64,000 nt of DNA, from the NCBI RefSeq assembly GCF_008389435.1, contig NZ_VUYS01000009.1:1-64000 (forward strand), read 5' to 3'. Positions 21,959 through 24,883 of this stretch are shown piece after piece (the stretch's first letter is position 1; each line of letters opens with the position of its first letter). This DNA comes from Candidatus Nitrosocosmicus agrestis (GTDB taxonomy: Archaea; Thermoproteota; Nitrososphaeria; Nitrososphaerales; Nitrososphaeraceae). A program made the translations under genes and the position numbers. The notes beneath the pieces were generated by a model that saw only the letters and a program-made list of their open reading frames with translations, was not told the DNA's origin and ran no database searches.

Positions 21959-22423
21959 ATGTATTTCAGCAAATATGCAGCAGGGATATTCGTTTTTGCA
22001 GGCATTTTATCAATGATCGGTGGAATAAGTGGAGTTACATTCACTCCTAATGTAAGTGCTCAAACTGTTGGAGAACAAATTGGCGATACTTTGGGTGGAG
22101 CAATCGATCAAGCCGGTGAAGCAGTAGGAAATGCTAGTCAAAGTTTAAGCAATGCCGCAAATGAAACTGGTCAAGCAGCAGACAACGCAACAACCATCGA
22201 TGAAAGTGCAAGTCAAGCTGTAAATAACACTGCAAGTGAAGCTGGTCAAGCAGCAGACAACGCAACAACCATCGATGAAAGTGCAAGTCAAGCTGTAAAT
22301 AACACTGCAAGTGAAGCTGGTCAAGCAGCAGACAACGCAACCTCCGCAGGAGGAAACGCATCTAACGACACATCAAATAATCCACTTGACATGTTGATGA
22401 ATTTATTCAAAGGAAATAAATAA
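21959..22423 (+). CDS. Small secreted Ala/Asn/Thr-rich repeat protein
   Basis: A 154-residue protein with an N-terminal signal-like hydrophobic segment (AAGIFVFAGILSMIGGISG) and a likely cleavage site after VSAQ. The mature part is low in hydrophobic residues and built from a 25-residue repeat containing GQAADNATTIDESASQAV, with many N-x-S/T sequons (NAS, NAT, NNT, NDT), so it may be heavily N-glycosylated. The C-terminus ends in an amphipathic MLMNLFKGNK. Nothing indicates catalysis. It looks like a surface-exposed or amphipathic-helix protein of unknown role. Confidence 0.75.
   Translation: MYFSKYAAGIFVFAGILSMIGGISGVTFTPNVSAQTVGEQIGDTLGGAIDQAGEAVGNASQSLSNAANETGQAADNATTIDESASQAVNNTASEAGQAADNATTIDESASQAVNNTASEAGQAADNATSAGGNASNDTSNNPLDMLMNLFKGNK
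22171..22340 (+). repeat. 75-bp tandem repeats inside the secreted protein gene
   Basis: Two identical 75-bp units at 22171-22245 and 22246-22320, then the first 20 bp of a third. The unit is a multiple of three, so copy-number change alters protein length without shifting the frame. Identity of the units points to recent expansion. Confidence 0.92.
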
Positions 22424-22475: not shown

Positions 22476-23357
22476 TTAGAATCTTCTCAAGACTTTTGGC
22501 TTTAACAATTCGGGATGGGTCTTTAAATAATCAATCTTAGATAGAATCTGATTTTTATCGCGAGGTAGTGTACCACCTATTGCATATACGTTTGAAGCGT
22601 GGTTTGCCCTAAATAATACATCATTTTTCACGTTAATATTATCTACTAAATTGCCAAGTTCTACAAGAATTTCTCTGTCCTCAAGTGCTGCAAAGGGTTC
22701 CTCAAATTTCTGTAAGAATTCTTCTTCAATTTCCGGTTCCATGTACAAAGTTAATGCACCCACATAGTTTGGCTCAATGGAATTTATAACTCGAGCCGTA
22801 TCTTTTGCGTGCTGTAATGTATATTTCTTACCACCAAGCCCTAATATAACCATACAAGACAATATAAAATTGGCCTCCTTTGCCTTTTTACAACTATCAA
22901 TTATCATTTTAGAAGTCGCACCTTTAGTAACTTTCTTCAGAATCCTGTCATTACCGCTTTCAATTCCTAAATACACCATATCCAAACCCGCAGATTTTAG
23001 AACTTTTAATTCCTCCATAGATTTTTGCATTAGATTCTTTGGCATAGAATAACTTGAGATTCTTTCGATATTCTTAAACCTCTGCTTTATATTGAGCAAT
23101 ATCTTCGCCAGTTTGTCAGTTCTTAGATTCAAGGCATCACCATCAGCCAGGAATACTCTTTTTGTTTGCGGGTAATATTTTGCCATTAGTTCTATCTCCT
23201 CGTGGATTTCTTCCATAGGTCTTTCAGAATAATCTTTAGTTCTATACATATTACAAAATGAACATTTGTTAAAAGAACATCCTAGCGTGACTTGAAATAT
23301 TAGTGAGCGCGCTTCTGAAGGTGGTCTATATAATGGATAATCGTACGCTAATTCCAT
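22476..23357 (-). CDS. Radical SAM protein of unknown substrate
   Basis: A 293-residue radical SAM enzyme. The cluster motif is C27-x4-C32-x2-C35 (CSFNKCSFCNMY), with the extra residue between the first two cysteines compared with the usual CxxxCxxC. FLADGDALNL and VYLGIESGNDRILKKVTKG, which bind SAM in this Elp3/HemN-like group, follow. No substrate-binding extra domain is attached; the C-terminal 80 residues are helical. Homologues of this kind occur widely in archaea and bacteria and are not characterised. ATG at 23357. Confidence 0.82.
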   Translation of the reverse strand: MELAYDYPLYRPPSEARSLIFQVTLGCSFNKCSFCNMYRTKDYSERPMEEIHEEIELMAKYYPQTKRVFLADGDALNLRTDKLAKILLNIKQRFKNIERISSYSMPKNLMQKSMEELKVLKSAGLDMVYLGIESGNDRILKKVTKGATSKMIIDSCKKAKEANFILSCMVILGLGGKKYTLQHAKDTARVINSIEPNYVGALTLYMEPEIEEEFLQKFEEPFAALEDREILVELGNLVDNINVKNDVLFRANHASNVYAIGGTLPRDKNQILSKIDYLKTHPELLKPKVLRRF

Positions 23358-23637
23358 TGTCTCTTTAAAGACCTTGAAGAATTATAATTTAACTATTCGT
23401 TATGTGAAAGGTTGTGCTGTATTACGGAAAACTCTGAGTCACTCTGAGTTACTCATAATGATTGTAGTATTAGATACTCTTAATTAAATTTCTTTATAAA
23501 TTGATTCGATTCACCAGTTTTTAATTCATCTTACATCAACTCATTTATTGATTGCCTTTATATTTTCAGATTTTCAAATTTTCTAACAACTGCTGGCTCT
23601 TTTTATAGAAAAATATTTAAATTAATGTTTTATACAA
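23358..23637. other. Intergenic region without a recognisable gene
   Basis: About 280 bp between the radical SAM gene start and the candidate sRNA. A short direct repetition ACTCTGAGT..ACTCTGAGT sits near 23430-23452. It probably carries the minus-strand promoter of the radical SAM gene; I see no ORF or stable structure. Confidence 0.4.
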
Positions 23638-23709
23638 ATTGGGTCAGTTCGTCGCAGGGTCATCATTGATTGCTCTCAGACTGGAGCAGCGATACACTTC
23701 ATCCCCAAT
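23638..23709 (-). ncRNA. Candidate C/D box sRNA (2'-O-methylation guide)
   Basis: On the minus strand a 6-bp terminal stem ATTGGG/CCCAAT encloses, in order, a box C-like GATGA (23699-23703, imperfect), a D' CTGA (23676-23679), a perfect C' box ATGATGA (23660-23666) and a perfect D box CTGA (23644-23647). The segment between C' and D is exactly 12 nt, the archaeal guide length, and would direct methylation to the U in TTCGUCGCAGGG. The segment between C and D' is longer than usual (19 nt). Order, boxes, stem and one guide spacing fit; the target has not been checked. Confidence 0.5.
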
Positions 23710-23755: not shown

Positions 23756-24883
23756 TTATAGGATGATAAGTTCTTTATCATATGAATGAAAGTTCAAAAA
23801 CTCAAATCCTTTTTTTGAGTCAGACACAGACTTTATTAGCAAACTATCCTCTATTCTGACTCCAAATTTGTTTGAAATATAAATGCCGGGTTCAATAGTA
23901 ATAGTCATATTCTCGCTTATCTTTGATTTAAAATTTGGTCTAATCCAAGGTAATTCATGAACTTCCAAACCAATCCCATGACCAGTTGAATGTATGAATT
24001 TTTCCCCATACCCTGCTTCCTTTATTAAATTCCTGCATGCCGCATCTATCTCGGAAAAATCGGTTGATGTGGCGATTTTTCCGATACCTTGTAGCTGAGC
24101 TTGATAAACTATGTCGTAAACTTCTTTCTTCTCTGGAGAAACATTGCCTATTCCAAATGTGCGTGTCGCATCAGATATATAATGATTATAACTTAAAGTA
24201 ATATCTAAAACAATCAAATCGCCGTCTTGGATTTTTCTAGATGAAGTTTCAGCATGCGGAAAGGATCCATTGGGACCACTAGCAACAATTAATGGATTCG
24301 ACGTAAATTGGTAAGTAGGGAATCGTGCACCCAAACGCATGGCCTCATATACCAGCGTTGATTGAATTTCTTCTTCTGAAATATTTACTTTAATTTCATT
24401 TCTGGCGACTTTGTATAATCTGTCGATTATATTTGAGGCCTTTTGAATTCTTTCTATTTCCACAGGTTCTTTAATTTGTCTAACCTGTCTCAATGCCTCT
24501 GGGTTAAGTTTTAATTTACTTTTTCCTATTTTCCTTGATATTTCATCAATAATCCAAAAATCGGTTCCACCATAGAATACCAAAACTTCAGTTCCAAGGA
24601 GATTTACAACTGATTCAGTCAAACTCTTCCCTCTCTCCGATTGGATAATATCACAATCAATTGATGTTTCTGTGGCTCTGAAATATTCTAATTTTGGAAC
24701 TATGAGTTTACTAGCTTTATCTTGAGTAATTATTAAAATTCCTTCCCCCCAATATCTAGAATAATAATATAGGTCTTCTGGATTGTCGATTATGAAAATC
24801 AAGTTATTATTATGGGTAAAATCTTCAAATAATTTCTTGCATATCTCAAACAGGTTTTGCTTTCTATCTTGCCAATTTTCCAA
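23756..24883 (-). CDS. M24-family metallopeptidase (Xaa-Pro dipeptidase/aminopeptidase type)
   Basis: Cleaves the bond before proline in peptides. The N-terminal 135 residues form a creatinase-like domain and the rest the pita-bread catalytic fold. All five dinuclear metal ligands are in place: D227 (LIVLDITL), D238 (YISDATR), H302 (STGHGIGLEVHE), E331 (ITIEPGIY) and E345 (VRIEDSLL). 375 residues. The ORF begins with TTG at 24883. It is divergent from the aminotransferase gene, 79 bp away. Confidence 0.9.
   Translation of the reverse strand: MENWQDRKQNLFEICKKLFEDFTHNNNLIFIIDNPEDLYYYSRYWGEGILIITQDKASKLIVPKLEYFRATETSIDCDIIQSERGKSLTESVVNLLGTEVLVFYGGTDFWIIDEISRKIGKSKLKLNPEALRQVRQIKEPVEIERIQKASNIIDRLYKVARNEIKVNISEEEIQSTLVYEAMRLGARFPTYQFTSNPLIVASGPNGSFPHAETSSRKIQDGDLIVLDITLSYNHYISDATRTFGIGNVSPEKKEVYDIVYQAQLQGIGKIATSTDFSEIDAACRNLIKEAGYGEKFIHSTGHGIGLEVHELPWIRPNFKSKISENMTITIEPGIYISNKFGVRIEDSLLIKSVSDSKKGFEFLNFHSYDKELIIL

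Follow-up and report, generated by a model that had tools for sequence, protein, structure and literature searches.

A predicted double-guide C/D box sRNA of Candidatus Nitrosocosmicus agrestis, aimed at two sites in 23S rRNA and recognisable across much of an archaeal phylum

An intergenic element on the minus strand of the window (the whole 64,000-nucleotide stretch of Candidatus Nitrosocosmicus agrestis DNA analysed here), with a 72-nt core at 23638..23709, is very likely (probability about 0.9) a double-guide archaeal C/D box sRNA aimed at G2251 and U2460 of 23S rRNA. It very probably belongs to a known kind of RNA; what is unusual is how widely this one is conserved. Judged from its sequence relatives, the guide RNA is recognisable across much of the archaeal phylum, an unusually wide conservation. 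The initial annotation had placed a C/D box guide RNA on this strand at these positions, and conservation, covariation within the kink-turn (k-turn) and complementarity to rRNA all bear that proposal out.

The minus-strand sequence of the element, ATTGGGGATGAAGTGTATCGCTGCTCCAGTCTGAGAGCAATCAATGATGACCCTGCGACGAACTGACCCAAT, reads directly as ATTGGG-GATGA-(19 nt)-CTGA-(9 nt)-ATGATGA-(12 nt)-CTGA-CCCAAT; the terminal stem and every motif listed in the initial annotation are there as it described them. The 5' arm of the stem (ATTGGG, 23704..23709) pairs with the 3' arm (CCCAAT, 23638..23643). Box D' (CUGA, 23676..23679), box C' (AUGAUGA, 23660..23666) and box D (CUGA, 23644..23647), all on the minus strand, match the CUGA and RUGAUGA consensus exactly. 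The element is intergenic, flanked by ORFs that are likewise on the minus strand (22476-23357 and 23756-24883), and a T5 run on the same strand about 25 nt downstream of it (23609..23613) may mark the end of transcription. Nearby on the plus strand, at 21959-22423, an ORF of 154 aa carries near-identical direct repeats (EAGQAADNATTIDESASQAVNNTAS). The minimum free energy fold of the element was unexceptional (z -0.88; shuffled sequences do as well), and in Rfam the window locus had no match even at E <= 1, with zero families over the gathering cut-off.

The core stands out as a conserved island. In a BLASTN search of 40 relatives, 12 of 14 congeners matched (E <= 1.8e-13, 82-90% identity) over the element plus at most about 10 flanking bases, and weaker matches turned up in several genomes elsewhere in the family and order; the same search returned no match in congeners G001 and G003, both at least 95% complete. 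A covariance model, R1 (73 positions, built from 23 homologues), scored the window locus at 88.1 bits (E 2.5e-18), a sequence that belongs to its own training set. R1 matched 253 of 300 genomes of the class, spread over 52 of 69 class genera and usually once per genome; among class genomes at least 90% complete it matched 191 of 213 and left 22 without a match. In a draw of 300 genomes from the phylum, 197 were matched, of which 147 lay outside the window's class (the 'same phylum' label), at E-values from 2.4e-9 up to the limit of 0.1; because these E-values are rough, the weakest matches may be due to chance. When 80 loci listed from a pattern scan of named genomes were scored at E <= 1, R1 passed 42, all archaeal, including Sulfolobales, Desulfurococcales, Thermofilales, Methanomethylicales, Nezhaarchaeota and Nitrosotalea, and passed none of the 35 bacterial and none of the 3 other archaeal loci. 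With each box just 4-7 nt long, a chance arrangement of short motifs might be suspected, but conservation through class and phylum, together with the k-turn covariation described below, makes it vanishingly improbable; matches in so many congeners and class genomes exclude it, in agreement with the initial annotation, which had judged the combination unlikely to arise by chance.

Synteny separates the element from its neighbours. The upstream ORF neighbour is the same in 11 of 12 congener loci; in the twelfth the contig stops before reaching it. The downstream gene, which we call radical-SAM from its sequence, is flipped in five congeners (L004, L009, L010, L011 and L012), and tblastn found no copy of it in the fetched loci L013 and L021-L024. 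A cis-acting leader or attenuator of that gene would account for the arrangement in the window, where the element sits upstream of it on the same strand; with the gene on the other strand in those five congeners, and no copy in the five tblastn loci, we regard such a leader as extremely unlikely, and it was ruled out on synteny. The flipped gene argues instead that the element is a gene of its own.

Within the 23 homologues used for R1, the four boxes and both guides are kept, with variants of boxes D and D' such as CCGA or CAGA; conservation of the boxes in relatives was a check proposed in the initial annotation, and they are indeed conserved. The C'-D spacer is 12 nt throughout, except in two homologues where it is 13 nt, and the D'-C' loop ranges from 8 to 33 nt.

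Two features of the initial annotation had to be revised, the register of box C and, as set out below, the idea of a single guide. The annotation took the GATGA beside the stem as box C, a register that gives no k-turn bulge. The homologues shift box C 3 nt inward, to a bulge of GAU (three nt, 23701..23703) and a box C of AUGAAGU (23696..23702), with the AU common to both; in the window this box agrees with RUGAUGA at five of seven positions. The outgroup homologue L120 illustrates the register, with the order stem ATGGGG, GAT, GATGT, a 12-nt spacer, D' CCGA, box D CAGA and CCCCAT. A bulge-less variant of the k-turn was considered and dropped once outgroup homologues had shown the shifted register. 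For k-turn scoring, 83 homologues were aligned and three gapped rows were set aside. The shifted register fits all 80 scored homologues: the bulge reads GAT in 64, AAT in 15 and TAT in 1, and the bulge U and both G.A/A.G pairs are present in 80 of 80. In L134, one of the gapped rows, the box C G.A is absent in the aligned register.

Box C nt 6 and box D nt 1 form G-C in 79 of the 80 homologues and G-U in one. At the 3b.3n position (box C nt 5 with box D nt 2) the combinations are A-U in 25, G-C in 20, G-U in 11, U.U in 9, U-A in 5 and others in 10. The two nucleotides covary across homologues; Watson-Crick pairs occupy the position in 50 of 80, a count that none of 10,000 shuffles reached (mean 28.0), although the shuffles ignore relatedness. 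In the terminal stem the two inner pairs are invariant, the four outer pairs are changed on both sides in some homologues, and 79.5% of cells are paired; covariation there is weak (25 of 500 shuffles reach its score). A Watson-Crick 3b.3n pair blocks folding of a k-turn by metal ions alone, and archaeal box C/D k-turns are reported to depend on L7Ae for folding (PMC4382518). By analogy, folding of the k-turn in this RNA should therefore depend on L7Ae.

Two guides can be read against 23S rRNA. The D guide (CCCUGCGACGAA, 23648..23659, minus strand) lies opposite CUCGUCGCGGG, a segment around U2460 (E. coli numbering) that we take to be helix 89; its nt 2-11 pair with CTCGTCGCGGG over 10 contiguous positions with one G.U, and nt 5 stands opposite U2460, a predicted Um2460. 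The D' guide (CGCUGCUCCAGU, 23680..23691, minus strand) lies opposite GCUGGGGCGGC; its nt 1-11 pair with GCTGGGGCGGC over 11 contiguous positions, three of them G.U, and nt 5 stands opposite G2251 in the P-loop, a predicted Gm2251. Both guides of the window form a Watson-Crick pair at nt 5. The target foreseen for the D guide in the initial annotation thus held in part: the organism's 16S and 23S rRNA contain no exact copy of the 12-mer TTCGTCGCAGGG, but the 10-nt pairing was found. Taken in a single genome, this complementarity is modest evidence. Among 1500 shuffles of each guide, 35 (D) and 151 (D') gave pairing just as good, as did 10 (D) and 23 (D') of 1500 arbitrary 12-mers from the window. 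With three G.U pairs, the D' duplex exceeds the two that Dennis et al. (2015) allowed (PMC4644070).

How the guides have evolved provides, on these alignments, stronger evidence for the targets. Eighty-three homologues were scored against 23S rRNA, 37 on their own and 46 on that of the window genome. In 82 of 83 the D' guide forms at least 9 contiguous pairs with the P-loop, and in 79 of 83 (34 of 37 on own 23S) this is also the place in 23S that it fits best; in a motif-free scan of the C-to-C' stretch against own 23S the P-loop ranks first in 33 of 37. Three homologues (L123, L139 and L143) have a D' guide that pairs better with another 23S site, and in L112 the fit is lost. For the D guide, the helix-89 sequence is the best site in 68 of 83 homologues (27 of 37 on own 23S); among these 68 guides, nt 5 falls at U2460 in 50, at G2459 in 9 and one nucleotide beyond that in 1; the remaining 8 were placed from the target sequence only. 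These counts of retention are partly ascertained, because R1 favours conserved guides and because the end of the D' guide was set by a CCA-type motif, not by box D', in the counts over all 83 homologues.

Guide differences among the first 23 homologues are mostly C/U opposite G. In G025 a G>A change at guide nt 3 is matched by C>U in 23S, and in G307 an A>G change at guide nt 2 is matched by U>C; in L104 / G036 a 23S change breaks the D duplex. In seven homologues (L120, L121, L125, L126, L127, L128 and L136) the D guide fits U2593 better than U2460, tying in L126 with a third 23S site; U2460 and U2593 are look-alike rRNA sites, a few substitutions apart. In three more (L135, L139 and L146) the D guide has been replaced by GGAAGAGCCGAG, which fits 23S GUCGGCUCUUCC with nt 5 at G2509. 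Pairing with the P-loop is kept in all 10 of these homologues with a re-aimed D guide. Five of the 83 (L104, L110, L115, L117 and L134) have a D guide with no coherent target. R1 matches are biased towards keeping the guides, since the model was built on them, but matched changes in guide and 23S, and whole guide replacements, lie outside what that bias explains.

These results bear on the possibility, raised in the initial annotation, that the D guide works alone and the C-D' part is filler. In its favour are the three G.U pairs of the D' duplex and the length of the C-D' spacer in the window, 16 nt after the shift of register versus about 12 nt in typical (though this is not essential) archaeal C/D box sRNAs. 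The initial annotation had called this stretch too long, at 19 nt; the guide within it fits the P-loop. Among rows from outside the class, 16 of the 21 that were parsed have a 12-nt spacer (parsing covered 73 of the 83 homologues), the P-loop pairing of at least 9 nt recurs in nearly every homologue, and the D' guide is kept in the three where the D guide was replaced. Of the two guides the D' guide is the more conserved, and a single active guide is therefore improbable. Of the 147 matches outside the class, 30 loci were read closely; they were picked by hand, mostly among the better-scoring matches, and so do not represent the outgroup at random.

The genome encodes two of the proteins that such an RNA would work with. 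Fibrillarin (E 2.6e-81) and Nop5 (E 2.8e-69) are adjacent genes about 300 bases apart on contig C37. The C/D pattern has four matches elsewhere in the genome, of which only L057 looks complete: a second candidate C/D box sRNA at L057:1501-1533 (G000:C15:43889-43921, plus strand), with a stem GG-[AAT]-GATGA/CTGA-CC and textbook boxes, whose guides fit rRNA over only 7-9 nt. A box-like pattern also occurs at L060:1501-1534 (G000:C37:135336-135369, minus strand); its D' guide pairs over 9 nt with 23S TCGGCTCTTC, a site that overlaps the one fitted by the D guides of G319, G389 and G312.

If the double-guide sRNA is expressed, boxes C and D would form a k-turn on the terminal stem and C'/D' an internal one, and L7Ae, Nop5 and fibrillarin should assemble on both. 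The D' guide, on the P-loop (helix 80) of 23S, would put the ribose of G2251 in the active site of fibrillarin, and the D guide, on the 5' strand of helix 89, would direct methylation of U2460. About 210 nt of 23S separate the two targets, both of which lie near the peptidyl transferase centre. By binding both domain V segments simultaneously, the RNA may hold them open while that centre folds. This geometry also suits an RNA whose main work is to bridge helices 80 and 89 as a folding chaperone, with methylation secondary or absent at one site, and double-guide chaperones have been proposed (PMC4644070). Such a role as the main one is rather unlikely, given the Watson-Crick pair at nt 5 of both guides in the window and the methylation already known for G2251 in E. 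coli and an archaeon (PMC12605026).

Taken together, the homologues make it reasonably probable that these RNAs are orthologues of one guide RNA already carried by the common ancestor of the Thermoproteota and retained by most lineages. Its P-loop guide would have stayed nearly fixed, the other guide would have been re-aimed around the peptidyl transferase centre (U2460, U2593, G2509), and the usual U.U of the k-turn would often have been replaced by a covarying Watson-Crick pair. An RNA that can be recognised in Nitrosocosmicus and Nitrosotalea as well as in Desulfurococcales and Sulfolobales would offer a fixed point for dating guide turnover, and its homologues would supply natural examples of guide retargeting and k-turn covariation. 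It also leads to a prediction of RNA-guided Gm2251 for the window's class. Guide RNAs of this sort are usually thought to change quickly, with which the present one contrasts.

No description of this RNA, no C/D sRNA study of Thaumarchaeota and no rRNA methylation map for the window's class were found among the papers listed by searches of the open-licence PMC literature. The word Thaumarchaeota is absent from the main texts of PMC4644070 and PMC7994747, and none of the seven species in those papers belongs to the window's class. The predicted P-loop modification has precedents elsewhere. In E. coli, Gm2251 is made by RlmB, which modifies the same nucleotide but is a stand-alone protein enzyme that works without a guide RNA (PMC11542601); PMC12605026 reports the mark in E. 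coli as well as in Methanosarcina acetivorans, in the latter by cryo-EM. Three of seven archaea have a predicted guide for G2251 (G2520 in Dennis et al.; PMC4644070). Among the predicted guides for this P-loop G (23S G2520) are sR13/sR45 of Methanopyrus kandleri (Dennis et al., Table 2; PMC4644070), from a different phylum and likened to the present RNA by predicted target alone.

In layout, the element resembles the Rfam families snoPyro_CD (RF00095), sR5 (RF01304) and other archaeal C/D families; several outgroup homologues reach 19-35 bits against Rfam C/D families, whose gathering scores are 37-50. The C/D box sRNAs of Sulfolobus, Pyrobaculum, Ignicoccus and Thermoproteus (PMC4644070, PMC7994747) are alike in their two guides, their C/D and C'/D' motifs, the N+5 rule and their targets in domain V of 23S. 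Breuer et al. (2021) described guide sets that vary and guides that evolve at an accelerated pace, with no methylation site common to all seven species surveyed (PMC7994747); they also cite the Pyrobaculum family study of Lui et al. (2018). In those archaeal sets the guides change fast (PMC4644070, PMC7994747), whereas here a single guide pair can apparently be followed across much of a phylum.
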